Virus record (IMG/VR): IMGVR_UViG_3300029448_000309
Span: 1 to 28,215 of that record
Source: a virus
Strand: one strand, 5' to 3'
DNA: 28,215 nt
Positions within the stretch are counted from its first letter, which is position 1. Each line of letters starts with the position of its first letter. Shown in pieces: positions 46-9,624 of the stretch. Below the pieces are notes generated by a model. The model did not search any database and was not told where the DNA came from. It worked only from the letters and a program-made list of their open reading frames with translations. Both the position numbers and the translations under genes were made by a program.

Positions 46-74
46 TTGACAAGTAAATATATTTATATTATTAA
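46..74 (+). promoter_or_regulatory. Sigma70-type promoter of the left early operon
   Basis: A perfect TTGACA (46-51) is followed after 17 bases by TATTAA (69-74), which matches the -10 consensus at four of six positions. It lies just upstream of a run of eight co-directional small genes that starts at 103. A host sigma70-type polymerase would use it, which fits the absence of a phage RNA polymerase in this window. Two CATTCT copies 20 bases apart (8-13 and 28-33) sit upstream and could be activator sites, but that is speculative. Confidence 0.65.
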
Positions 75-85
75 CTTTAGTTAAC
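71..85 (+). promoter_or_regulatory. Putative operator, copy A (TTAAC-repeat element)
   Basis: TTAACTTTAGTTAAC overlaps the -10 box and the likely transcription start of the left early promoter. It matches the element at 7170-7184 at 12 of 15 positions and contains the palindrome GTTAAC. Related elements occur at 6345-6359 (minus strand) and 7170-7184. A repressor bound here would block initiation. The Cro-like protein encoded at 6666-6878 is the natural candidate, but no binding has been shown. Confidence 0.4.
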
Positions 86-102
86 TATGAAAGGGGTTTA
101 TT

Positions 103-255
103 ATGGATAAAACTATAATGAAACTAGAAACTATTTTAGATTATTTATGTAGGATGACAGGTAGAGATATAACTATCTTCTATCCTACAAAGCAATCTGA
201 AATCGTGCCTTATCTTAAAAAAGAGATCAAGACTACATTGGAGTTGGTCAAATGA
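103..255 (+). CDS. Small early protein, 50 aa, unknown function
   Basis: This is the first gene of the left early operon. The ATG at 103 follows the purine-rich ribosome site GAAAGGGG (88-96) and the promoter at 46-74. The product is a mixed-charge helical protein that begins MDKTIMKLET and ends LELVK, with no membrane segment. I do not recognise a family. Its stop overlaps the start of the next gene in an ATGA arrangement (252-255), which indicates translational coupling. First-position small early genes of lytic phages often encode host-takeover inhibitors, but nothing in the sequence demonstrates that here. Confidence 0.6.
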   Translation: MDKTIMKLETILDYLCRMTGRDITIFYPTKQSEIVPYLKKEIKTTLELVK

Positions 256-422
256 TTAAGATGAGGATTAAAGGTAAATTGTACACAGGCCAATCTGTGT
301 ACGATTGCCTATGTCAAGCAGTACGTCAACCTATTAACATTCATGCTAAAATGGTTGATGTGCATAAACTAATCTCAAAAAAACCTATAACTAAAAAGGA
401 GGATAAAGATGGGATATACTAA
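252..422 (+). CDS. Small basic early protein, 56 aa, unknown function
   Basis: The ATG at 252 overlaps the previous stop (ATGA). The protein begins MIKMRIKGKL and is basic, with a lysine-rich C-terminus (ISKKPITKKEDK). The N-terminal part may form a short beta-rich fold followed by a helix (residues about 15-40), and two cysteines lie close together (C19 and C21). No family is recognised. The last 14 bases overlap the next gene, whose ribosome site AGGAGG lies inside this reading frame. That overlap and the tight coupling support it as a real gene. Confidence 0.55.
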   Translation: MIKMRIKGKLYTGQSVYDCLCQAVRQPINIHAKMVDVHKLISKKPITKKEDKDGIY

Positions 423-834
423 CTATTGGAAACAACCTACGGACTTTACTGACGAGCAATGGAGTAAGGTAAAAATGGAGGCCGACTATGTTCGTAGTTG
501 GTCTGAACTTCCACAGATTAAGAAAGTTTGTGAAGTTGAAATACATAAAGATGAAATCATCATTTATGGGCAATGCGAAAGTATGCATATTAATCGCTAT
601 GCTAAAACTAAACCCGATTACGAGGGGCAAGATATTACATTTAATTTTTGTAAAACCCGTGAGCAAGTCTATGATCTTGCCGTGTGGCATATGCTTGTCG
701 CTTGTGCTTTTGTAAAAGATGATTTTACGATTTCACGTGATAATCATAATTTTACGGAGGACACTCTCGCTAATGTAGATGAAATTGAGTTGACACCTAA
801 ATCACTACAGACAGATGAGGCCGTAAATGGGTAG
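409..834 (+). CDS. Conserved phage hypothetical protein, 141 aa
   Basis: The AGGAGG at 397-402 is well spaced before the ATG at 409. The N-terminus MGYTNYWKQ followed by FTDEQW (residues about 13-18) and the later stretch CKTREQVYDLAVWHML (residues about 81-97) are familiar to me from unannotated proteins of environmental and marine phages, where the function is unknown. The protein is acidic with no membrane segment or signal peptide. It is the largest gene of this operon and overlaps the following membrane-protein gene by eight bases. I infer a cytoplasmic early protein and cannot assign a reaction. Confidence 0.75.
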   Translation: MGYTNYWKQPTDFTDEQWSKVKMEADYVRSWSELPQIKKVCEVEIHKDEIIIYGQCESMHINRYAKTKPDYEGQDITFNFCKTREQVYDLAVWHMLVACAFVKDDFTISRDNHNFTEDTLANVDEIELTPKSLQTDEAVNG

Positions 835-982
835 CGGTAGAATAGCTTTGACTTGTGGGGGTTTATCCCTCACAGGTCTAGGGTGGTTTATGTCATATAA
901 CGCAGATCATACGCTTGGACTTATCCTTGCAGGTGGTGGCGTTATTTTATTAATAAGTGCTTTACCTAGAACGGAGGATTAA
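827..982 (+). CDS. Small two-helix membrane protein, 51 aa
   Basis: The ATG at 827 lies eight bases inside the end of the previous gene. The product has two hydrophobic glycine-rich stretches, at residues about 6-23 and 30-46, separated by the polar turn SYNADHT, and ends in a charged tail (LPRTED). It should be a hairpin inner-membrane protein. Its place in the early operon, far from the lysis genes, argues against a holin and would fit an early envelope-acting or superinfection-exclusion protein. That role is a guess. The GGAGG serving the next gene lies in its last codons. Confidence 0.6.
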   Translation: MGSGRIALTCGGLSLTGLGWFMSYNADHTLGLILAGGGVILLISALPRTED

Positions 983-983
983 T

Positions 984-1319
984 ATGGCGCAACATTATAA
1001 AATAGAAAGTTGGAGTAATGAAAAATGGTATCCTAAAATTATGAAAAGAATTAAATGGATACTCAAATACACAAGTGGCAATAGAAGTTATTATGGTAGT
1101 GATTATTATTTAAAAAGGTTAAGTATATTACCAAAAGAATATTGCACAGATGTGTTTGGTAATAATGAGGGTAATTTAGCTTTATCATACAAAACTACAA
1201 TTAATGACATTCTTGATAAAGATAATGATTACCCGCTTTCTGATTGTAATATTGAGATACATTCACAATCTAGGGGTTTAACACAAAACAAATATATACA
1301 AGCGTATATAGTTTTATAG
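984..1319 (+). CDS. Early hypothetical protein, 111 aa
   Basis: The start is set at the ATG at 984 because GGAGG (974-978) lies just upstream; an in-frame start at 957 has no ribosome site. The protein begins MAQHYKIESW, is basic and tyrosine-rich in its first half (KRIKWILKYTSGNRSYYGSDYY), and contains two cysteines (about positions 54 and 88). There is no signal peptide or membrane segment. I recognise no family. It is part of the co-directional chain of small early genes and ends just before the AGGAGG of its neighbour. Confidence 0.65.
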   Translation: MAQHYKIESWSNEKWYPKIMKRIKWILKYTSGNRSYYGSDYYLKRLSILPKEYCTDVFGNNEGNLALSYKTTINDILDKDNDYPLSDCNIEIHSQSRGLTQNKYIQAYIVL

Positions 1320-1329
1320 GAGGATAACA

Positions 1330-1623
1330 ATGACACACTTTGTAATAAAAAAATTGACTAATTGTGGTAATATAGACTTTGGTCAAAACCCCTATGAAGT
1401 CAAGTTTGGTACAAGTACACTTGTCAATATCAAACATAAAAAATTATCTAAATTAAAAGAGTTAATTAATGTTTATATTGATGAGCATGATTTGGGTGGT
1501 GGTAATTTTATACCGCCTAAAGTTTATAAAAATAAAAAGTATGTTGGTTATTTTTCTTATAATGCAAGATTTTGGCGAGAGAAATATCCGTATCCACATT
1601 TAGAAAAGGAGTATAAACTATGA
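1330..1623 (+). CDS. Early hypothetical protein, 97 aa
   Basis: A strong AGGAGG at about 1318-1323 precedes the ATG at 1330. The protein is basic and aromatic. It has a lysine-rich segment (KHKKLSKLKELINVYI, residues about 36-51), then a glycine-containing loop (DLGGGNF), and a tyrosine-rich C-terminus (YFSYNARFW). No family is recognised and no catalytic motif is visible. Its stop overlaps the next start (ATGA at 1620-1623), so the two are translationally coupled. Confidence 0.65.
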   Translation: MTHFVIKKLTNCGNIDFGQNPYEVKFGTSTLVNIKHKKLSKLKELINVYIDEHDLGGGNFIPPKVYKNKKYVGYFSYNARFWREKYPYPHLEKEYKL

Positions 1624-1856
1624 CACAAAGAGATGACGGCCACGATTATAGAGATAGTAAGAATAAGGCAGAAGCGCATAAAAAAAAGAAGTTTAGCGTT
1701 TCTATTGCAGGTCTTAATAATCAAATAAATAGGTTAAATGAACTAGATCCTACAAAGGATACTGCTATCTATACAAAACAACAACTATCAACTATAATAG
1801 ATGACTTAACAGACATACTTATAGATCTGAAAATAGAAACAGGAGTAGATGTATGA
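1620..1856 (+). CDS. Early helical protein, 78 aa
   Basis: The ATG at 1620 overlaps the previous stop, with AAAAGGAG upstream (1603-1610). The N-terminal third is highly charged (residues 3-24 rich in D, R and K). The rest alternates hydrophobic and polar residues as expected for two amphipathic helices (residues about 27-43 and 53-74). It could be a small oligomer or a partner-binding protein. No family is recognised. It shares four bases with the last gene of the operon. Confidence 0.6.
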   Translation: MTQRDDGHDYRDSKNKAEAHKKKKFSVSIAGLNNQINRLNELDPTKDTAIYTKQQLSTIIDDLTDILIDLKIETGVDV

Positions 1857-1975
1857 TTATATTTGGCAAGACACCTAAAGATTGGAAACGTGATTTAGGT
1901 AGTACAAGTCTATATTACAGAACTGAAATTATTTGTTTTGTTGTTGGTTTTGTGATAGGTGCAATCGTTTTATAA
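1853..1975 (+). CDS. Small single-pass membrane protein, 40 aa
   Basis: The ATG at 1853 overlaps the previous stop (ATGA). The product has a polar, positively charged N-terminal half and a C-terminal hydrophobic segment (IICFVVGFVIGAIVL, residues 26-40) that ends at the stop, typical of a tail-anchored membrane peptide. This is the last gene of the early operon; the terminator hairpin begins two bases after its stop. The function is unknown. Confidence 0.55.
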   Translation: MIIFGKTPKDWKRDLGSTSLYYRTEIICFVVGFVIGAIVL

Positions 1976-1976
1976 T

Positions 1977-2032
1977 GTTAAGGGAGGAAGCGAACAAAAT
2001 CGTATTCCTCCCTCAACTTCTTGTATTTTTTT
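1977..2032 (+). terminator. Rho-independent terminator of the left early operon
   Basis: AGGGAGGAA (1981-1989) pairs perfectly with TTCCTCCCT (2005-2013). The stem extends by GTT/AAC (1977-1979 with 2015-2017) after one A-C mismatch, and a T-rich run follows (2018-2032, including seven consecutive T). It lies at the convergence of the plus-strand early operon and the minus-strand replication operon, and the stem could also act on the minus strand although the T-run there is poor. Confidence 0.8.
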
Positions 2033-2059
2033 AATAACTTTTGATATTTAAGTTTCCAT
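1978..2059 (-). other. Three-codon ORF with strong RBS and out-of-frame 26-codon remnant
   Basis: On the minus strand a perfect AAAAGGAGG (2076-2068) stands eight bases before an ATG at 2059, yet that frame reads only Met-Glu-Thr-stop (2048-2059). In the adjacent frame, from 2058, 26 codons rich in lysine, leucine and tyrosine (WKLKYQKLLKKYKK, ending FVRFLP) run open to a stop at 1978-1980 inside the terminator stem. A one-base deletion, a +1 recoding event or a sequencing error after the ATG would join them into a coiled-coil-like peptide. It may be the frameshifted last gene of the replication operon, or chance. Confidence 0.3.
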
Positions 2060-2083
2060 GATGTACGCCTCCTTTTGTTAATT

Positions 2084-2230
2084 CTATTTCCCTTGTCCAC
2101 GATACTTCTTATAACTCCTACGTTTATTCTTATTCATTTTTGTTTTACTTGGATTTCTACCTATAGACGTTTTATGATGTATAGGTTCGTGTTCTACCTT
2201 TGAATATAATCCTTTACTCTTTTTTGCCAT
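2084..2230 (-). CDS. Tiny lysine/arginine-rich protein, 48 aa
   Basis: The ATG at 2230 reads MAKKSKGLYSK, then EHEPIHHKTSIGRNP, and ends KKYRGQGK. It is strongly basic with no hydrophobic core, so it is probably disordered or nucleic-acid binding. Proteins with this KGL-x(4)-EHEPIHHKTSIGR layout are familiar to me from marine phages, without known function. It overlaps the preceding gene of the replication operon by 17 bases, which supports it as real despite its size. A role in nucleic-acid binding is inference from composition only. Confidence 0.7.
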   Translation of the reverse strand: MAKKSKGLYSKVEHEPIHHKTSIGRNPSKTKMNKNKRRSYKKYRGQGK

Positions 2231-2501
2231 CTTCCTTTTTTAATAGTTTACTAATAGCATCTAATAAGAATGTAATCTGTTTATTACCTATAGATCTAAC
2301 AACTACAAACAACTCACGTTCTCTATCTGTCATCTTATCTATAAGTCTATGATCTTTATACTCACTAAAACCACTTTGTTGCATTTCTTCATCAAACTTG
2401 CTTATCCAATCCATAGGTACATTTAACATTGTATCTAGTTTTTCCTTTTCATAAGTATCTTTTGGAAATATTTTATCAAACTTATCGTAATCTAATGACA
2501 T
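2214..2501 (-). CDS. Helical hypothetical protein of the replication operon, 95 aa
   Basis: The start is placed at the ATG at 2501 because GGGAGGGG lies directly before it (about 2510-2503). A longer frame upstream would run deep inside the HNH gene without a better ribosome site. The protein begins MSLDYDKFDK and is charged and helical; the segment MTDRERELFVVVRSIGNKQITFLLDAI (residues about 56-82) could form a small helix-turn-helix or dimerisation unit. I do not recognise a family. It overlaps the HNH gene by 10 bases and the tiny basic gene by 17. Confidence 0.6.
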   Translation of the reverse strand: MSLDYDKFDKIFPKDTYEKEKLDTMLNVPMDWISKFDEEMQQSGFSEYKDHRLIDKMTDRERELFVVVRSIGNKQITFLLDAISKLLKKEDGKKE

Positions 2502-2803
2502 ACCCCTCCCTTGCAACAGTTGACTAACTCTATGTTTAATTTTAATAACTCTTTTTGTGTTCCCCATTTTTTTGTAAAATCTTTTGGACTAAAATGATAG
2601 CTTTCCTTTCCTTGCCTATGATGTGTAGGACAAAGCCCAATCACTTCATAATGACTAGATCTCTTACCCATACCTGTCTTATCTTTGATATGGTGTAGTT
2701 CACATGGAGTATCTGGATAGCCCATTTTATAACATATGATACAACCAAAGTCTGCAATCTTTTGCATATGTTCTTTCATGTGTTTAGTCTTTGTACGTGT
2801 CAA
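2492..2803 (-). CDS. HNH nuclease, Ref-like (RecA-dependent recombination nuclease family)
   Basis: A short HNH protein of just over 100 aa. It has a CxxC pair (GCIIC), then CELHHIKDK with the HH catalytic/metal pair, then GMGKRSSHY, then GLCPTHHRQGKESYH. The layout CxxC / LHHI / GMG-x-R / LC-x(2)-HH-x-G is that of the phage P1 Ref recombination-enhancing nuclease and related phage HNH proteins. It probably nicks or cuts DNA with a metal ion, possibly in recombination filaments. The start is uncertain: TTG at 2803 has AGGAGG nine bases upstream, TTG at 2809 is too close, and an ATG at 2779 is possible. It overlaps both neighbours. Confidence 0.8.
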   Translation of the reverse strand: MTRTKTKHMKEHMQKIADFGCIICYKMGYPDTPCELHHIKDKTGMGKRSSHYEVIGLCPTHHRQGKESYHFSPKDFTKKWGTQKELLKLNIELVNCCKGGVCH

Positions 2804-3092
2804 ACTCAAAATCCTCCTTTGTAAATTCTATAGATCCAACCTTTTTTATCTTCACTATGTTTTTATTATATATAATCATTTCTTCACCTATCTCATCTTC
2901 GGATATAGACATAAAAAAGTTATGACAATGTTTATCTTTTGATAATAAATAACCCTCCGTAAATGCTATTGCAGGTCTATCTTTCTTTGCTTCACTCATA
3001 GACTTCCATTGATTGTGTGATATGTGATCTATCCACCATACTTGGTACTTGTCAAACTTGTTAATAATTTCTAGTTTATTTTTTATTGCCAT
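2784..3092 (-). CDS. Hypothetical phage protein, 102 aa
   Basis: The protein contains KYQVWWIDHISHNQWKS (residues about 15-31), then a segment ending GYLLSKD, then alternating hydrophobic residues in the C-terminal half (EEMIIYNKNIVKIKKVG) suggesting a small beta barrel. Short proteins with a VWW-D-x(5)-W pattern occur in phage replication operons, as I recall, without known role. The start ATG at 3092 overlaps the end of the upstream gene by 17 bases, and the end overlaps the HNH gene. I infer a small cytoplasmic accessory factor and do not assign a function. Confidence 0.65.
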   Translation of the reverse strand: MAIKNKLEIINKFDKYQVWWIDHISHNQWKSMSEAKKDRPAIAFTEGYLLSKDKHCHNFFMSISEDEIGEEMIIYNKNIVKIKKVGSIEFTKEDFEFDTYKD

Positions 3093-3435
3093 AGTTTTTA
3101 TATTCCGCCATTTGATTTATAGTTTTAGTTTTCCAACTATCAAAATTAATCTGTACTAAATACTTTTCCCAGTTCAATTCTGCCTCTTTACCAACTGCAT
3201 CTGCAAGGTTGTCAATATGTGTTTTATATCTTTCATCTGCTCTTGCTTCTCGTTCTTGGGCATTTACACTATCCATTTTACCCGTATTAGAATTTATCAT
3301 TTTCTCTTTCATTATTACAGACAATAATATTTTACGGCCATGTTCTAGTTTTGTTAGGTTTTTCTTGGCATTTGCATGGTTTTTACCTAGTTGTCTTAAC
3401 TCATGCATTTTCTTTTCAATATATTCTTCACTCAT
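3076..3435 (-). CDS. Helical hypothetical protein, 119 aa
   Basis: This is a highly charged, almost entirely helical protein. Residues about 5-60 have heptad-like spacing (HELRQLGKNHANAKKNLTKLEHGRKILLSVIM), and QEREARADERYKTHIDNL (about 79-96) continues it, so a helical hairpin or coiled-coil dimer is likely. No catalytic residues are evident. It overlaps the helicase gene by eight bases at its start, which suggests coupled translation and possibly a helicase accessory role. The basis for that role is position only. Confidence 0.65.
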   Translation of the reverse strand: MSEEYIEKKMHELRQLGKNHANAKKNLTKLEHGRKILLSVIMKEKMINSNTGKMDSVNAQEREARADERYKTHIDNLADAVGKEAELNWEKYLVQINFDSWKTKTINQMAEYKNYGNKK

Positions 3436-4924
3436 AACTAAACTCCCTTATGTTTTTAGATTTTGCTCTACGTATATTTAGATGTTGTATGTACCCCATA
3501 ACATCTTTACCTGTAGCTACAGGAATTACTTTTTTAGAATGAGGCCAATGACCATACTTTTCTTTAAATGTATATGAAGCCCACCCCTCTTTGTATCCTT
3601 TTTGTTTTGCAAAATAGACAAGTTGTGCATAAAAGTTTTCTTTATCTTCTGCATTTGGTTTCATCTTCGGTAGTTCAACTAATCTACCTTGTTTAATTAA
3701 TATAACTTCTTCTTTCTTTGTAGGTATATGCCCACAATTAGGACATTCTGGACTATCTTTTATAGGTTTATAAACTGTATCACATTCAACACACGTAAAA
3801 GGTTGTTGATCTATAGGTTTAGGTTCTTTCTTTTTCTTCTCTTTTTCCTTGCTAGTTTTTAATGTCCAATCTGGTACATCCTCTGGAAAGCCATGTTCAT
3901 ACACACAGCCACTATGATCTATAATTAATGTATCTTTTTTATTAGGCGCAGGTCTTAAACTTCTACCTACCATCTGTAAATACAATGAATATGATTTAGT
4001 AGGCCTAGCTATAATTACACAAGACACCTTGGGCTGATCCCAACCCTCCGTCAAGACCATACAATTAGATAATACTTTTATCTCACCACTATTTAATTTT
4101 TCTAATTGTTCTTCACGTTCTATTTCTGCCATCTCACCATCTATGTGGCCACTAGGTACACCATTTTGTTTAAATATATTTGCAATGTATTTACTATGTT
4201 TGATTGATACACCAAAAACTACAGTTGGCCTTTGTTCACCATGTTGTATCCAATGTGATACAATATCACCAACTAATTTAGGTGTATTCATTTTTGTATT
4301 TAAAGTTTTCTTTTCATAATCACCTGCAACTATACGTATATCTTGTAAGTCTGGTATTGTAGGTGCAACTATTCTATTAGGTACAAGAAACCCTTGTCTA
4401 GTAAGATCTTTAATGTTGCCACCTTGTACAAGTTCTTCGTATATATTTCCTAAACCTTTACCGTCAGCTCTACAAGGTGTTGCAGTAAGGCCAATGACAA
4501 AAGCGTCTGGATATTCTTCTATTAATTGTTTAAATGATTTAGACGTAGATCTATGCGCCTCATCTATAATAATAACATTTGCATTTGGTTTTATAAAATC
4601 ATCTCTATCTTTACGTGATGTAAATGTTTGTATGGAAGCTATTTGTACATCTGCATAATGATTTGGTGTTTTACTCGCCATAATTACACCGTGTTTAATA
4701 TCAAAGTCAGCTAACTTACGGCTACATTGCATCACCAACTCCCTTCTATGGGCAACAAACAAACCGAAGTTCCCCCTTTCAATTATCTGTTCCAACATTG
4801 ATGATGCAATAACCGTTTTACCGCTACCCGTAGGGGCAACAAGTAAAATCTTTTTTTTGCCTTTAGCAAAATGATTTCTAATATTATTAATTGCCTGTTT
4901 TTGATATTCTCGTAGTAGGTTCAT
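3428..4924 (-). CDS. DEAH-box superfamily 2 helicase with C4 zinc finger
   Basis: This is a 498-aa SF2 ATP-dependent helicase. Motif I is APTGSGKT (residues 30-37), motif II is DEAH (121-124), motif III is GLTATP (145-150), and motif VI is QMVGRSLRP (317-325). A C-terminal treble-clef or zinc-ribbon finger uses C378, C381, C394 and C397 (CVEC and CPNC). The layout matches the UvsW/RAD25-like and type III restriction-like phage helicases that act in fork remodelling, initiation or recombination. It overlaps the primase gene by 38 bases, so primase and helicase are made together. In this window it is the only replicative-type helicase; no T7 gp4 or DnaB homologue is seen. Confidence 0.93.
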   Translation of the reverse strand: MNLLREYQKQAINNIRNHFAKGKKKILLVAPTGSGKTVIASSMLEQIIERGNFGLFVAHRRELVMQCSRKLADFDIKHGVIMASKTPNHYADVQIASIQTFTSRKDRDDFIKPNANVIIIDEAHRSTSKSFKQLIEEYPDAFVIGLTATPCRADGKGLGNIYEELVQGGNIKDLTRQGFLVPNRIVAPTIPDLQDIRIVAGDYEKKTLNTKMNTPKLVGDIVSHWIQHGEQRPTVVFGVSIKHSKYIANIFKQNGVPSGHIDGEMAEIEREEQLEKLNSGEIKVLSNCMVLTEGWDQPKVSCVIIARPTKSYSLYLQMVGRSLRPAPNKKDTLIIDHSGCVYEHGFPEDVPDWTLKTSKEKEKKKKEPKPIDQQPFTCVECDTVYKPIKDSPECPNCGHIPTKKEEVILIKQGRLVELPKMKPNAEDKENFYAQLVYFAKQKGYKEGWASYTFKEKYGHWPHSKKVIPVATGKDVMGYIQHLNIRRAKSKNIREFSYE

Positions 4925-5735
4925 ATCTTTTCCATATATCGTTTAGTTGAAATAAAACTTCGCTTTGTTCATCTGGTGGATTACAATGACTATTAAATTC
5001 TAATGCTTCTGTCTTTGCGTAATCATATGTTTCACCACGTAATCTTATTGATATTAACATCTTTACTAATTGTTCGTGCCTATCACCCTCACCACATCCA
5101 TAACGTAGTGTGCCTGTATATTGGCCTTGATACATAGATGGATCATGCTTGATTACTTTACGTTCTGGCCTTACTAATTTCAATCCATCTCTTATTTCTT
5201 TCATAGTGTATGGTTCATGTGCAGTACATTGTAATATTTTTACAGGATAAGGATTTTGTTTGTGATGATAAAAACCTGCAACACGCATTACACGTGGAAG
5301 ATCTTTTACTTTAGGATCTGAATTAAATCTTGTTGCAAGTGCTTCTTGGTATAATTCAAAACTTTCTAATGGCATATCTTTTACAATCCAATAACAATGA
5401 AACTTATTACGACTTGTATTAACAACTATGTTAGGTATGACATCAAACTTTGTAGGTAATGGAGTACCATCAAGATCAATAAATACTGCTCTTACATCTT
5501 TTATATTTTTTGTAGATCTACCACAAAGATCAGTTTTATTTACAGTAAAGTATACACCTGCGCCTTTGCTATTTAGTTCAGCAAGTTCATCAAAGTGTTC
5601 TTCAATAGTACCATGTAATTGTCTTATTAATTTTTTGTTTTTAATTTTGTCATCAAAAGTTTGAAATGTATGTGTCTGTCCAAAGTAATCTAAAAACATA
5701 CTGTAATGTGAGTTAGGTGTATATGTCATTCGCAT
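4887..5735 (-). CDS. RepB-type DNA primase (AEP fold) with primase C-terminal domain
   Basis: A 282-aa protein. GVYFTVN (residues 60-66), then VRAVFIDLDG (81-90) with D87 and D89 as metal ligands, KFHCYWIV (111-118) with H113, and LPRVMRVAGFYHHK (146-159) form the archaeo-eukaryotic primase core seen in RepB-like plasmid and phage primases. Residues about 215-272 (GEGDRHEQLVKML, then SEVLFQLNDIWKRY) resemble the helical C-terminal primase domain that contacts a helicase. It would synthesise primers at the fork. The start ATG at 5735 or the one at 5729 overlapping the upstream stop are both possible; AGGA lies just upstream. It overlaps the helicase gene. Confidence 0.88.
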   Translation of the reverse strand: MRMTYTPNSHYSMFLDYFGQTHTFQTFDDKIKNKKLIRQLHGTIEEHFDELAELNSKGAGVYFTVNKTDLCGRSTKNIKDVRAVFIDLDGTPLPTKFDVIPNIVVNTSRNKFHCYWIVKDMPLESFELYQEALATRFNSDPKVKDLPRVMRVAGFYHHKQNPYPVKILQCTAHEPYTMKEIRDGLKLVRPERKVIKHDPSMYQGQYTGTLRYGCGEGDRHEQLVKMLISIRLRGETYDYAKTEALEFNSHCNPPDEQSEVLFQLNDIWKRYEPTTRISKTGN

Positions 5736-5947
5736 CTATGTCCTATTACTAATTTGTTTCCGTCTTTTGTATAATAAGCTGAATGTTCCCATACACCTTC
5801 TTCATACCAATGGAATGTTGACATATCTTCTATAATTTTATGTGCATGGTCTGAACACCACTCATACTTTGTGTGGTCATACTCGTAATATAATCTTTCT
5901 AAATCACAAGTACTACAAGCCAATACAAATATAATTATCTTAACCAT
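5726..5947 (-). CDS. Small cysteine-containing protein with signal-like N-terminus, 73 aa
   Basis: The N-terminus MVKIIIFVLACSTC resembles a short signal peptide; LACS could even be a lipobox, although such a short one would be unusual. The rest is acidic and aromatic (YYEYDHTKYEW, TFHWYEEGVW) with cysteines at C11, C14, C31 and C72, so disulfides in the periplasm are possible. It sits oddly between a replication-initiation gene and the primase and overlaps both, so it is surely co-translated. Its function is unknown. A cytoplasmic metal-binding fold using the cysteines and histidines is the alternative. Confidence 0.6.
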   Translation of the reverse strand: MVKIIIFVLACSTCDLERLYYEYDHTKYEWCSDHAHKIIEDMSTFHWYEEGVWEHSAYYTKDGNKLVIGHRCE

Positions 5948-6335
5948 CTTCGCCTAATGTTTCATCACTCCATCTTTTTTTTGCGCCTAACTTTCCTGCA
6001 ATAGATCTTTTCTTTCTATTCTTTTCTTGTTCTTTACGTTCTTCTTCTGCCTGTATACAAACTAAAAATACTTTACCTTCTTTGTCTTTCTTTTCTTCAA
6101 ATAGATGTGATATGTTTTTCCAAATTTTTTCTAACTTATCAGTTCTGCAATTACACATTCTTGACATAACCTCTATGTCTTTTGGTATACGGAAACTACG
6201 CCAACAATGGCAATACAATAAAACATATGCGCCTTGTTCTTCTAATGACAACTTCATTCTGTTTGGATCTGAAATCCAATCACTTGCATAAAATTGAAAC
6301 GCAGGGCTTTGCTCGTCTGTTGTTGATTTTCTCAT
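5940..6335 (-). CDS. DUF1376-family putative replication-initiation protein
   Basis: A 131-aa protein. The segment PAFQFYASDWISD (residues about 11-23), followed by LSLEEQGAYVLLYCHCW (about 29-45) and a basic C-terminus SIAGKLGAKKRW, is the DUF1376 signature found in many phage replication proteins near the origin. The N-terminal part is predicted to form a winged helix. I infer an origin-binding or primosome-loading role, supported by its position as first gene of the replication operon beside a 330-base non-coding region. Its own promoter and a putative operator lie at 6345-6393. Confidence 0.82.
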   Translation of the reverse strand: MRKSTTDEQSPAFQFYASDWISDPNRMKLSLEEQGAYVLLYCHCWRSFRIPKDIEVMSRMCNCRTDKLEKIWKNISHLFEEKKDKEGKVFLVCIQAEEERKEQEKNRKKRSIAGKLGAKKRWSDETLGEDG

Positions 6336-6344
6336 TTTATAATC

Positions 6345-6393
6345 ATTAAGTTAGGTTAACATCAGTTTTACATTAAGAGAAACTTCCTGTCAA
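6345..6393 (-). promoter_or_regulatory. Promoter of the replication operon with putative operator, copy B
   Basis: On the minus strand, TTGACA (6393-6388) is followed after 17 bases by TAAAAC (6370-6365), a 4-of-6 match to the -10 box. Downstream, TTAACCTAACTTAAT (6359-6345) differs at one position from the element at 7170-7184 and ends nine bases before the ATG at 6335. A repressor bound here would block elongation or initiation, and might mask the ribosome site region. No strong Shine-Dalgarno sequence precedes 6335. Confidence 0.5.
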
Positions 6394-6413
6394 GTGTGTC
6401 TACTATCTTGTAT

Positions 6414-6462
6414 GTAGTTGTAGTTGTAGGTGTAGTTGAAGGTGAAGATGAAGATGAAGGGG
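6414..6462 (+). repeat. Strand-asymmetric hexanucleotide tract (GTAGTT then GAAGAT/GAAGGT)
   Basis: The plus strand reads as diverged tandem six-base units: GTAGTT, GTAGTT, GTAGGT, GTAGTT, GAAGGT, GAAGAT, GAAGAT, GAAGGG. It contains no cytosine at all on this strand over about 50 bases. Such tracts can act as unwinding elements or iteron-like binding sites, or may simply have expanded by slippage. Confidence 0.7.
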
Positions 6463-6546
6463 ATACTTTTGCCATTAGCAAAACGATACGATTTTATAAC
6501 AATGCTATAGCAATGCCATTCTTTATAACCATTCTAAAGAAGGGAG

Positions 6547-6595
6547 GTGGTGCGGAAACCTAAACTAAAATGAAAGAGGGAAAAAACCGCACCAC
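6547..6595. other. Inverted repeat with 9-bp perfect arms and 31-base loop
   Basis: GTGGTGCGG (6547-6555) pairs with CCGCACCAC (6587-6595). The arms are unusually G+C-rich for this genome, and the loop is AT-rich with six consecutive A (6581-6586). No T-run follows the stem on either strand, so it is not a standard terminator. It could be an origin hairpin, a single-strand origin-like element or a protein-binding inverted repeat. Confidence 0.6.
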
Positions 6596-6665
6596 AATAT
6601 AGCTTCCACTCTCGCTTTCACTATATACACGGTATACTTTTAACCTATTTGATAATGGTCTACGC

Positions 6666-6878
6666 CTACCGTTTAGGCGCAATCTCTAAATCTGGTCTTA
6701 TGTAACTTATATCATAATCACCTAATTGTGCAATCTGATATGCACGAAAAGGTGGTATTACTTGCCATTTAGATACGGCAGGATGTGAGATCCCCAGCAT
6801 ACGTGATAAATTTTTACCACCATATTTACCTACGATCTCTTTCTTACGTTCTTTTGCTAATCCTACCTTTTCTATCAT
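6666..6878 (-). CDS. Cro/YdaS-like helix-turn-helix repressor, 70 aa
   Basis: The segment GGKNLSRMLGISHPAVSKWQ (residues about 20-39) is a clear helix-turn-helix, and the continuation to PPFRAYQIAQLGDYDISYIRPDL has the layout of the YdaS/Cro family (Cro-like antitoxin or repressor), including the RPDL ending. It should bind short operators as a dimer. It overlaps the upstream coiled-coil gene by four bases (ATGA), so both are read from the promoter at 7110-7138. Candidate targets are the TTAAC-repeat elements at 71-85, 6345-6359 and 7170-7184. No CI-type repressor with a cleavage domain and no integrase is seen, which suggests a regulator of early timing rather than of lysogeny. Confidence 0.85.
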   Translation of the reverse strand: MIEKVGLAKERKKEIVGKYGGKNLSRMLGISHPAVSKWQVIPPFRAYQIAQLGDYDISYIRPDLEIAPKR

Positions 6879-7102
6879 GTTTCACCCTGTTGTATTTTTG
6901 CAACAGTAGTGTGTCTTAATTGCAACAGGTATTTAGACCTATCCTCACACTTTATTGCTTCATCTGTAAGCACTAATATATCATCAGCTTTGTTATAATG
7001 TTGAGGGATAACACTAGATCTGTCAAGATTAATAATTTCTTTATCAATCCTTTTTTGTTTAGCTTGTAATTCCTCTATAAGTTCATCTAATACACTTGCC
7101 AT
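6875..7102 (-). CDS. Small coiled-coil protein upstream of the repressor, 75 aa
   Basis: The start is taken as the ATG at 7102 (MASVLDELIEELQAKQKRID). An in-frame TTG at 7138 would add 12 residues but it coincides with the -35 box of the predicted promoter and has no ribosome site. Residues about 4-26 form an amphipathic charged helix likely to dimerise, and residues about 45-70 form a second helix (DEAIKCEDRSKYLLQLRHTTVAKI). The family is not recognised. The four-base overlap with the repressor gene suggests a functional partnership, for example an anti-repressor or co-repressor, but that is inference. Confidence 0.65.
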   Translation of the reverse strand: MASVLDELIEELQAKQKRIDKEIINLDRSSVIPQHYNKADDILVLTDEAIKCEDRSKYLLQLRHTTVAKIQQGET

Positions 7103-7109
7103 AATTTGT

Positions 7110-7138
7110 TCTATATTTGTTTTATTAACAAAAGTCAA
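7110..7138 (-). promoter_or_regulatory. Promoter of the repressor operon, predicted leaderless transcript
   Basis: On the minus strand, TTGACT (7138-7133) and TATAGA (7115-7110) are separated by exactly 17 bases. Transcription would begin about seven bases after the -10 box, at 7103-7102, which is the A of the ATG at 7102. No Shine-Dalgarno sequence precedes that ATG. The mRNA would therefore be leaderless or nearly so, as for lambda cI transcribed from PRM. Confidence 0.5.
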
Positions 7139-7147
7139 TCTATATAC

Positions 7148-7184
7148 TTGACTTACGTTAATATATCATTTAACTTAACTTAAT
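7148..7184 (+). promoter_or_regulatory. Rightward promoter with putative operator, copy C
   Basis: TTGACT (7148-7153) is followed after 17 bases by TAACTT (7171-7176), a weak -10 box. TTAACTTAACTTAAT (7170-7184), three tandem TTAAC/T units, overlaps it. The element is placed relative to the -10 box much as at 71-85. It lies between the divergent repressor operon (start at 7102) and the SSB/nuclease operon (start at 7215), the same geometry as the lambda PRM/PR control region. Confidence 0.45.
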
Positions 7185-7214
7185 CAATAATAAATTAGTG
7201 AAAAAAGGATATAT

Positions 7215-7820
7215 ATGACAAGCATAATAGCAAATGGTGGCAATGATACACCAAGTTATCCAACGGTATCTGTTGGTGTACATAAGGCCAGATGTGTAAG
7301 AGTAATAGATCTCGGTACACAGCAAAACGATTATCAAGGGCAGATTAGTTGGAAAAGACAGGTAATGTTGATATGGGAAGTACCATCTGAAACAGATAAC
7401 AAAGGTGAACCATTAACAATCAGTAAGTTCTATACGTTATCATTAAATGAAAAAGCAAATCTTGCTAATGATTTAGTATCATGGCGTGGTAGACCTTTTA
7501 CTGAAACAGAAAAGAAAGCGTTTGATATATCAAAGGTAGCAGGTAAACCGTGTAGTATAAATGTTATACTAAATCAAAACGGTAAACCAAAAGTATCAAC
7601 CGTTATGCCAATAGGTAAGAATGATGAGATTGCACAACAGTTTCATCCTAACATGGTATTTAGTATTACAGACTTTCAAGAAAAAAAGATGGAAGTGTTT
7701 AATCAATTACCCGAAGGCATAAGAAACATTATCTTAAAATCTAAAGAGTTAGAAGGTACGGAAAAACAAGATTTAGGTGATGAGAATAATGCACAAGATC
7801 TTGGTGATATTCCGTTCTAA
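7215..7820 (+). CDS. Single-stranded DNA-binding-like protein with canonical acidic tip
   Basis: A 201-aa protein with AAAGGA just before the ATG. The N-terminal domain has HKARCVRVIDLGTQ (residues about 23-36), then YTLSLNEKANLANDLVSWRGR (about 73-93) and later VAGKPCSINVILNQNGKP (about 107-124), the layout of a phage family often annotated as a DNA-binding replication protein. The C-terminus is acidic and ends GDIPF, matching the conserved tip of bacterial SSB proteins (DDDIPF in E. coli) that recruits partner enzymes. I infer an SSB that coats single strands and recruits the adjacent nuclease. Its stop overlaps the nuclease start (TAATG). Confidence 0.72.
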   Translation: MTSIIANGGNDTPSYPTVSVGVHKARCVRVIDLGTQQNDYQGQISWKRQVMLIWEVPSETDNKGEPLTISKFYTLSLNEKANLANDLVSWRGRPFTETEKKAFDISKVAGKPCSINVILNQNGKPKVSTVMPIGKNDEIAQQFHPNMVFSITDFQEKKMEVFNQLPEGIRNIILKSKELEGTEKQDLGDENNAQDLGDIPF

Positions 7821-8725
7821 TGAAAATAACAAATAGATCAAATCTACCAAAAGTTATTGAACGGGCTGTAATAAATGATCCCTATGATAGTAGTGGATCT
7901 AACATATCTGCAACCCGTTTGATTGCACCACCTAGAATAAGAGTACTAGAAATGCGTAACTGGGATCTTATTGAAGATGATGTATCAAATAGAATATTCT
8001 CTTTACTTGGTCAATCCGTACACCATATATTAGAGAGATCTAAACTAAAGGTAGATCTAGCTGAACGTAGATTGTTTTACAAAGATGATAAGATAACTAA
8101 TGGATGGACATTAAGTGGTCAGTTTGATTTGTTATCTAGACAAGGTGATCTAACAGATTTTAAAGTTACATCTGCATGGGCCGCACTTGATGCATTGACT
8201 AATGGTAAAGACGAATGGGAAAACCAACTTAATGTATTAGATTTTCTGTGTAGAAAAAATCAAAAGACATTGACAAGGTATAAGAAAGAAGTCAAAGTTA
8301 AATCATTAAACATAATGGCTATACTGCGTGATTGGTCAAAACTAAAAGTAATGCAATCAGACAACTATCCAAGAAAACAAGTTGTTATGATACCTATACG
8401 TAGATGGTCAGAAGAAGAACAAGAAAACTATGTACAGGCACGTATTAAATTACATCAAGATGCAGAAAAAACAGATGATCTTCCATTGTGTACAGCAAAA
8501 GAAAGATGGCGAAAAGAAGATAGTTATGCTCTTATGTTGGACAACAGAAAAACTGCAAAACGTGTATTACCTACAAGACAAGACATGGATAAATACATGA
8601 AAGATAATAAATATGTTGAAGGCCAAGGATGTAAGGTAGTATTCCGTGCAGGTGAAGATGTTAGATGTCAGCATTATTGTAGTGTTAATCAGTTCTGTAG
8701 TCATTTTATGAATGTGAGTTTTTAA
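7820..8725 (+). CDS. PD-(D/E)XK exonuclease, Cas4/RecB-like, possible Fe-S cluster
   Basis: A 301-aa protein. The core motifs are GQSVHHILE (residues 64-72), SGQFDLL with D103, DLTDFKV with D113 and K115, and Q136 in WENQLN, the order seen in Cas4/RecB-family exonucleases. Near the C-terminus C283, C287 and C293, with C271 or C224 as a fourth ligand, resemble the iron-sulfur cluster of Cas4/AddB nucleases, although the spacing here is CxxxC rather than CxxC. It would resect or trim DNA ends in recombination-dependent replication. It is coupled to the SSB-like gene before it and the small gene after it (both TAATG overlaps). No CRISPR array or cas1 is present, so a CRISPR role is not indicated. 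Confidence 0.82.
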   Translation: MKITNRSNLPKVIERAVINDPYDSSGSNISATRLIAPPRIRVLEMRNWDLIEDDVSNRIFSLLGQSVHHILERSKLKVDLAERRLFYKDDKITNGWTLSGQFDLLSRQGDLTDFKVTSAWAALDALTNGKDEWENQLNVLDFLCRKNQKTLTRYKKEVKVKSLNIMAILRDWSKLKVMQSDNYPRKQVVMIPIRRWSEEEQENYVQARIKLHQDAEKTDDLPLCTAKERWRKEDSYALMLDNRKTAKRVLPTRQDMDKYMKDNKYVEGQGCKVVFRAGEDVRCQHYCSVNQFCSHFMNVSF

Positions 8726-9409: not shown

Positions 9410-9624
9410 TGATTGAAACAGTTATAGCATTATTAATGATAGTCAATAATGAAATACAAGAACATAGAATACAACCTTCTATGTCAGAATGTTTAAAAGG
9501 TAAGAGGGTTGCCGATAGGCAGTTAAAGTCTGGTGGTAATGTTAGATATCAATGTTTAAAATCAGAAGCAGAAATTGAAATATATTTAGATAAGAAACAT
9601 ATAAAAAAATTAATATTAAAATAA
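9409..9624 (+). CDS. Small secreted-type protein with two cysteines, 71 aa
   Basis: The N-terminus MIETVIALLMIVNN is a short hydrophobic segment that could be a signal or anchor. A polar region follows with SMSECLKGKR and VRYQCLKS (C28 and C49), consistent with a single disulfide in the periplasm, and a basic C-terminus (KKHIKKLILK). It resembles unannotated proteins of marine phages and has the same design as the gene at 9781-9999. Its place in the lysis region suggests an envelope role, which is inference. Confidence 0.6.
   Translation: MIETVIALLMIVNNEIQEHRIQPSMSECLKGKRVADRQLKSGGNVRYQCLKSEAEIEIYLDKKHIKKLILK

Follow-up and report, generated by a model that had tools for sequence, protein, structure and literature searches.

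A probable palindromic operator set for a single Cro-type regulator in a group of phages related to Pelagibacter phage Baldr

The window analysed here is the whole of a 28,215-base virus record (IMG/VR record IMGVR_UViG_3300029448_000309), and the element in question is a short TTAAC-containing sequence that recurs at the starts of its operons. A preliminary description of the window had presented this element as a 15-base TTAAC repeat in three copies (A, B and C), and had proposed a Cro-like protein encoded in the window as the regulator of the left-early, replication and recombination/lysis operons together. The finding is real once the form of the element is corrected, and the element is then seen to be a phage-wide operator set. 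With a probability of about 0.8, assessed from sequence, the sites are 14-bp operators of the form TTRAC-N4-GTYAA for the single P22_Cro-family autorepressor of the phage, which would shut off the early and replication operons without a CI protein. What has been computed is the palindrome, its spacing, its conserved places and its association with the Cro-bearing group of phages.

The nearest named relative of the window is Pelagibacter phage EXVC032P Baldr (OQ414636.1), with 70.4% identity over 66% of the first 8 kb; its host on record is Pelagibacter HTCC1062. Scans of viral contigs gave 23 loci with the helicase as the query and 69 with the Cro-like protein, and among the matches listed the gene order is conserved in most loci. 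Thirteen of the 92 loci were dropped from the spacing count, namely three pieces of the window, seven second pieces of the same contig and three distant loci found by the helicase only, which left 79 related loci of 913 kb with the window excluded. The same 13 loci and those fetched later were dropped from the later counts.

Comparison of the regions upstream of the RecT-like gene (a working label, not a search result) in 51 distinct sequences showed that the element is a mirror-symmetric palindrome, TTRAC-N4-GTYAA, present in one to three copies in most of them. In the 79 loci, the two halves TTRAC and GTYAA occur 225 times at a spacing of 4; the counts at the other spacings up to 12 range from 0 to 14. 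The half-site TTAAC alone reaches 103 copies at spacing 4, against 13 for the best of 30 permuted half-sites. When all 5-mers were compared, one other inverted repeat, ATAGC-N3-GCTAT (59 copies), had a higher ratio of observed to expected; it seems to belong to the repeats of the gap between cro and the DUF1376 gene. The 15-mer in its original form is not enriched, with 9 matches of up to 3 mismatches where 7.96 were expected and 45 of 100 shuffles reaching 9, and the reading of the element as a direct repeat was rejected on this count. TTAAC direct repeats peak at a spacing of 5 (55 copies); this peak is taken as a by-product of a palindrome followed by C, because TTAAC-N4-GTTAAC yields the same spacing. 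The term TTAAC repeat was thus wrong, the relatives having a palindrome in its place.

A motif scan of the relatives had been suggested as a check, with hits confined to equivalent intergenic regions counting as support. The palindromes do fall at the same operon starts and 194 of the 225 are intergenic, the intergenic share of these loci being 12%, but the remainder lie in called coding sequence. A cruder gene calling that allowed TTG starts placed 167 of 228 copies, window included, in intergenic DNA. By place, 145 of the 225 are in the divergent region between cro and the RecT-like gene, 9 stand before the replication operon, 48 are on the left-early/late side and 23 are elsewhere, the last group including 12 at the 3' end of an HNH nuclease gene.

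For conservation place by place, the relatives were thinned to lineages at 80% ungapped identity. In the divergent region, a perfect site lies within 110 nt of the RecT-like start in 27 of the 31 lineages, where 0.05 would be expected. The other four have sites with one mismatch (L022), two (L080) or three (L075 and L078), and in L076 and L079, which are similar to those four in this region, perfect sites lie closer to cro. All 29 lineages compared carry a site with no more than one mismatch ahead of the replication operon. It lies within 70 nt of DUF1376 in 24 of them (0.52 expected); in the other five (L004, L018, L020, L054 and L083) it is found 0.2-0.5 kb upstream, and the longer gap then contains another ATG, which is read as an inserted gene. 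The one-mismatch sites at the position of copy B have their fault at the inner C/G of one half in 22 of 23 cases, 5 in the left half and 17 in the right, so that the weak half is on the left or the right depending on the lineage, which suits a symmetric dimer. Of the 20 loci extending 5 kb or more beyond the helicase, 19 have one to three perfect sites on the left-early/late side. The element recurs at the same operon starts in related phages.

The window itself contains five sites; the earlier count of three had overlooked O1 and O2. Three of the five are perfect palindromes (A, 71-84; O1, 7125-7138; O2, 7148-7161), of which only A had been noted earlier, and the backwards control gave none. 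These three have the top scores in the window with a matrix whose training set was the exact matches of 69 loci, the near-identical clade being left out; such a matrix penalises one-mismatch sites heavily. The three 15-mers were correctly located, at 71-85 and 7170-7184 on the plus strand and 6359-6345 on the minus strand. Their mutual agreement (14 of 15 positions for B and C, 12 of 15 for A and C) was also confirmed, and each of them does have a TTGAC(A/T) box on one side and the first gene of its operon on the other.

All promoter boxes in the window were called by eye from the sequence. Operator A (71-84, TTAAC-TTTA-GTTAA), an exact match and the best in the window at 21.3 bits, is found at the same place in L005, L010 and Baldr. 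It overlaps the -10 box (69-74) of the predicted left-early promoter on the plus strand, the -35 box of which is at 46-51. Operator B (6346-6359, minus strand, TTAAC-CTAA-CTTAA) has a single mismatch, in the inner base of one of its halves, and covers about -1 to +13 of the predicted replication promoter (minus strand, -35 at 6393-6388, -10 at 6370-6365). In the divergent region, O1 (TTAAC-AAAA-GTCAA), an exact match conserved in the alignment, provides with its GTCAA half the predicted -35 box of the leftward cro promoter, whose -10 box, TATAGA, is at 7115-7110. O2 (TTGAC-TTAC-GTTAA) is likewise conserved, and its TTGAC half is the -35 box of the predicted rightward promoter. The -10 box of the latter (7171-7176) is overlapped by O3 (7170-7183, TTAAC-TTAA-CTTAA), which is the former copy C; it has one weak half in the window and is perfect in some relatives, e.g. 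L013, L054 and L061. The sites overlap the predicted core promoters.

The proposed binder is the 70-residue product of the cro-like gene (6666-6878, minus strand). It belongs to the P22_Cro family (PF14549, E 5e-10, 39.4 bits with a cut-off of 30.2), and its best relative in the PDB by profile is P22 Cro (1RZS, E 2e-6). The preliminary description had assigned this helix-turn-helix protein to a Cro/YdaS family; the Cro part of the assignment stands, and identity with the YdaS toxin (PF15943) was rejected at 22.7 bits, below the cut-off of 30. The model of the protein is all helical (pLDDT 90.5). Foldseek placed P22 Cro 1RZS first, but at E 0.24 and with no match at E 0.001 or lower, and VIA-align gave Z 7.6 with Xfaso 1 Cro and 6.9 with 1RZS, values that are weak and not above those of unrelated proteins. 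Weak fold matches are common for so small a domain.

Family searches covered 16 of the 19 records of the group, some of which are possibly incomplete, and each of the 16 has exactly one P22_Cro gene over the cut-off; the other three (L011, L016 and L077) carry the gene by tblastn. The 19 Cro-bearing records have 70 palindromes in 653 kb, compared with 8 in 628 kb for 14 other pelagiphages recorded on the SAR11 strains HTCC1062, HTCC7211 or FZCC0015, none of which has a P22_Cro gene. At least two sites are present in 18 of the 19 group records and in none of 13 other pelagiphages, the 147-kb HTVC008M with its three sites being set aside. A dyad site is expected for a dimeric helix-turn-helix protein. 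The earlier proposal of one Cro-like regulator for the three operons is well supported by the dyad, the conserved places, the geometry shared with a phage ES18 operator and the association with the Cro-bearing group, from which binding is inferred.

Regulation by Cro would proceed as follows. After infection, the host RNA polymerase would fire these sigma-70-like promoters. As Cro builds up, a dimer would occupy the two TTAAC half-sites of each operator. Bound at O1 in the divergent region, the dimer would mask the -35 box of its own promoter, and bound at O2 and O3 the -35 and -10 boxes, respectively, of the recombination/lysis promoter. Operator A would place it over the -10 box of the left-early promoter, and the weaker operator B over the replication promoter's start site. 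The cro operon and the early operons would be damped in this way, and the replication operon, having the weakest site, would be damped last.

Several points weigh against this reading. That Cro binds and represses, and in an order set by the strength of the sites, is an inference; the recognition helix is nearly invariant among the relatives, and protein-DNA covariation is unusable for that reason. Taken singly, B and O3 are weak: they rank fifth and sixth in the window at 10.3 and 9.7 bits, where about 1.55 matches of at least 10 bits are expected by chance, and it is only the conservation of their positions among the relatives that upholds them. A match in coding DNA at 9433-9446 outscores both with 10.7 bits, and some of the nine 15-mer matches are coding as well; the preliminary description had noticed no comparable element there. 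Among the 225 palindromes, 31 lie inside called coding sequence, 12 of these at the 3' end of an HNH nuclease gene. A p value of 5e-13 is too strong, the relatives being non-independent. L022, in which the gene order differs, has no perfect site in the pieces examined near its genes. Finally, a late-side site in the relatives stands upstream of the core promoter and not on it, which simple repression does not predict.

The palindrome at the HNH gene is perfect in the 12 loci, e.g. at L060:10105-10118 and L049:7433-7446; the window has no perfect copy there. It is perhaps the operator of an internal promoter.

The late-side site also shows that the scope first given was too narrow: the three operons named in the preliminary description hold, but the relatives add a site that would lie beyond the edge of the window. 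In 22 distinct sequences of relatives and in L100, the late operon has next to it a perfect site that follows a conserved C-rich element; in Baldr this site is at 233-246. Four other records (L096-L099) have their sites in a different context, and the layout is not universal. The late promoter was examined in 17 regions chosen by hand from these sequences. The promoter-like signal peaks with the -35 box four nt after the operator, at 6.65 against a maximum of 6.12 in 300 resampled sets, and a second hump (up to 6.06) at 13-15 nt is about one helical turn further on. An ATG lies 5 to 7 nt past the -10 box in 13 of the 17 best fits. Immediately upstream of a weak promoter is a common position for an activator. 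It is conceivable, though we hold it only tentatively, that the lone 70-residue Cro-type protein has a dual role as an early-to-late switch in these SAR11-related phages, in which no integrase was found. It would repress its own, early and replication operons and, bound at the site that precedes a weak, leaderless late promoter, turn on the late structural operon, in the manner of protein p4 of phage phi29, which together with p6 acts on early and late promoters. The peak above all 300 resampled sets, the second hump and the recurrence of the late-side site speak for this role. The second hump, however, does not exceed the resampled maximum, related sequences inflate both signals, the late -35 and -10 calls are weak and the site is outside the window; moreover, we know of no activation by a lone P22-type Cro.

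The C-rich element itself, about 70-80 bp long (CACCCCCCAAAAC...CAATGGATTAATCCGCACAGCGGTGGG), is conserved directly before the late-side operator (L007:13270-13370, L010:12955-13053, L004:150-246 and others). It is possibly a cos/pac site, an activator site or a leader; a search of Rfam with 1,401 bases from the late side of L007 found nothing at E values up to 5.

Genes for a dormant state were not found in the group. In the 16 tested records, some of them possibly incomplete, no tyrosine integrase, resolvase or S24-type repressor was detected, nor any HTH_3 (CI/C2) protein over the cut-off; of three weak HTH_3 matches, two fell on the Cro gene. The same searches detected integrase and HTH_3 in all 14 control genomes and resolvase and S24 in 10. 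As no CI was found, the circuit would be a one-protein control of timing or dosage rather than a lysis-lysogeny switch. Cro could alternatively hold the phage in a carrier or dormant episomal state as its master repressor, silencing it in some cells from nearly every operon start. The sites do stand at the main operon starts, as a silencing repressor needs, but the integrase, resolvase and S24 repressor are missing from all 16 records (partition and plasmid genes were not searched for). In addition, a scan of genomes with the Cro alignment, by two short peptide patterns only, gave one distant match (36%, Oceanospirillum) and no SAR11 prophage. A state of this kind is improbable.

It is very unlikely that the palindromes are sites for a host regulator, either CtrA, with sites of the form TTAA-N7-TTAA, or another SAR11 protein. 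The sites are rich in TTAA, and TTAA-containing CtrA sites in intergenic DNA are known from phages of Alphaproteobacteria (PMC9437464). The three original copies, however, are TTAA-N6-TTAA, the spacing of TTAA-Nn-TTAAC has no peak at 7 (44 copies, against 71 at 6 and 102 at 8), and the C/G arms are inverted, not direct. The sites are frequent in the Cro-bearing group and near background in the 14 other phages of SAR11 strains, which speaks against a host protein, the comparison being among phage genomes. Coincidence in AT-rich sequence, against which the preliminary description had cautioned, agrees with the chance-level count of the raw 15-mer but can hardly account for the sharp spacing peak, the intergenic placing and the conservation by place of the palindrome.

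With regard to the neighbouring genes, operator A lies upstream of the first genes of the left-early operon, orfA1-orfA4 (103-982, plus strand), which were taken from the list of open reading frames and have homologues in some relatives. The replication operon (3428-6335, minus strand) encodes a DUF1376/primosomal protein, a RepB-type primase and a DNA helicase, as assigned by PHROGs and Pfam. Rightward of the divergent region, the recombination/lysis operon begins with the RecT-like gene (phrog_862, unknown function) and an exonuclease gene (phrog_2139) at 7215-8725 on the plus strand, and continues to about 12383 with lysozyme and phosphoesterase genes (Pfam lysozyme and Metallophos). The sequence CAATARTAAAT at 7185-7195, at the predicted start of the rightward transcript, is conserved in many relatives, some of them distant.

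Upstream of cro and in the same operon is an open reading frame (6875-7102, minus strand) with no PHROG or Pfam family above the cut-off. Judged from the sequence, it probably starts at the ATG at 7102 and not at the TTG at 7138, which is inside the -35 box and O1. This ATG lies 7 nt past the TATAGA -10 box, and the late-side promoters of relatives are laid out alike; the spacing suggests that the transcript of the cro operon is leaderless. The gap between cro and DUF1376 (6400-6540 in the window) contains iteron-like GCATTGCTATAGCATTG repeats and a tract of TTCATC/TTCACC/CCTTCA hexamers ahead of the replication promoter. All 13 gap sequences compared have the hexamer tract, and most have, by eye, the iteron-like repeats; the gap is a candidate replication origin. 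In L075 (1132-1592), a tRNA-like sequence has apparently been inserted in this gap.

The timing of gene expression in pelagiphages that lack an RNA polymerase of their own is an open question. For Skadi, promoters of the host type are reported, along with two regulators whose sites are not known (PMC10504331), and for HTVC027P, all early genes are described as of unknown function (PMC12753301). In the present group, one member of which (Baldr) has Pelagibacter HTCC1062 as its recorded host, it is now possible to name a regulator together with its probable sites and the operons that it would target. No paper on pelagiphage operators was found by title or opening of the abstract in the open literature, subscription journals being mostly outside its coverage, and no account was met there of a pelagiphage group that uses Cro operators in the absence of CI and integrase. 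If the proposal is true, a Cro-type regulator has been retained in the absence of both.

As a kind, the Cro operator system is already known. Phi29 p4, together with p6, represses early and activates late promoters (PMC3100819). The circuit described here would share with p4 the logic of one early regulator combining early repression with late activation, the activation being hypothetical here. The p4 protein belongs to a family different from that of the present Cro. The CtrA sites resemble the palindromes in TTAA content and intergenic position and differ in spacing and symmetry, and other phages of SAR11 strains are at background for the palindrome. A lambdoid CI/Cro immunity region has a partner repressor (S24 or HTH_3) and an integrase, and neither was detected in the 16 records. 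Close counterparts are P22, imm21 and ES18, which have in common with the present group a P22_Cro-family protein and several palindromic operators in the divergent promoter region (O_R). They differ from it in that no c2/CI partner and no integrase were found here, and in that the sites here lie over the main operon starts and, in relatives, on the late side. An operator of the P22 type has two 5-bp arms around 4 bp, and the spacing peak of the palindrome is at 4. The Cro of ES18 matches P22 Cro at all of the 41 residues searched, and the O_R annotated in that phage contains TTAAG-TCAT-CTTAA, which has the same 5-4-5 geometry as TTRAC-N4-GTYAA with the inner base of the half-site swapped, TTAAC here and TTAAG in ES18.

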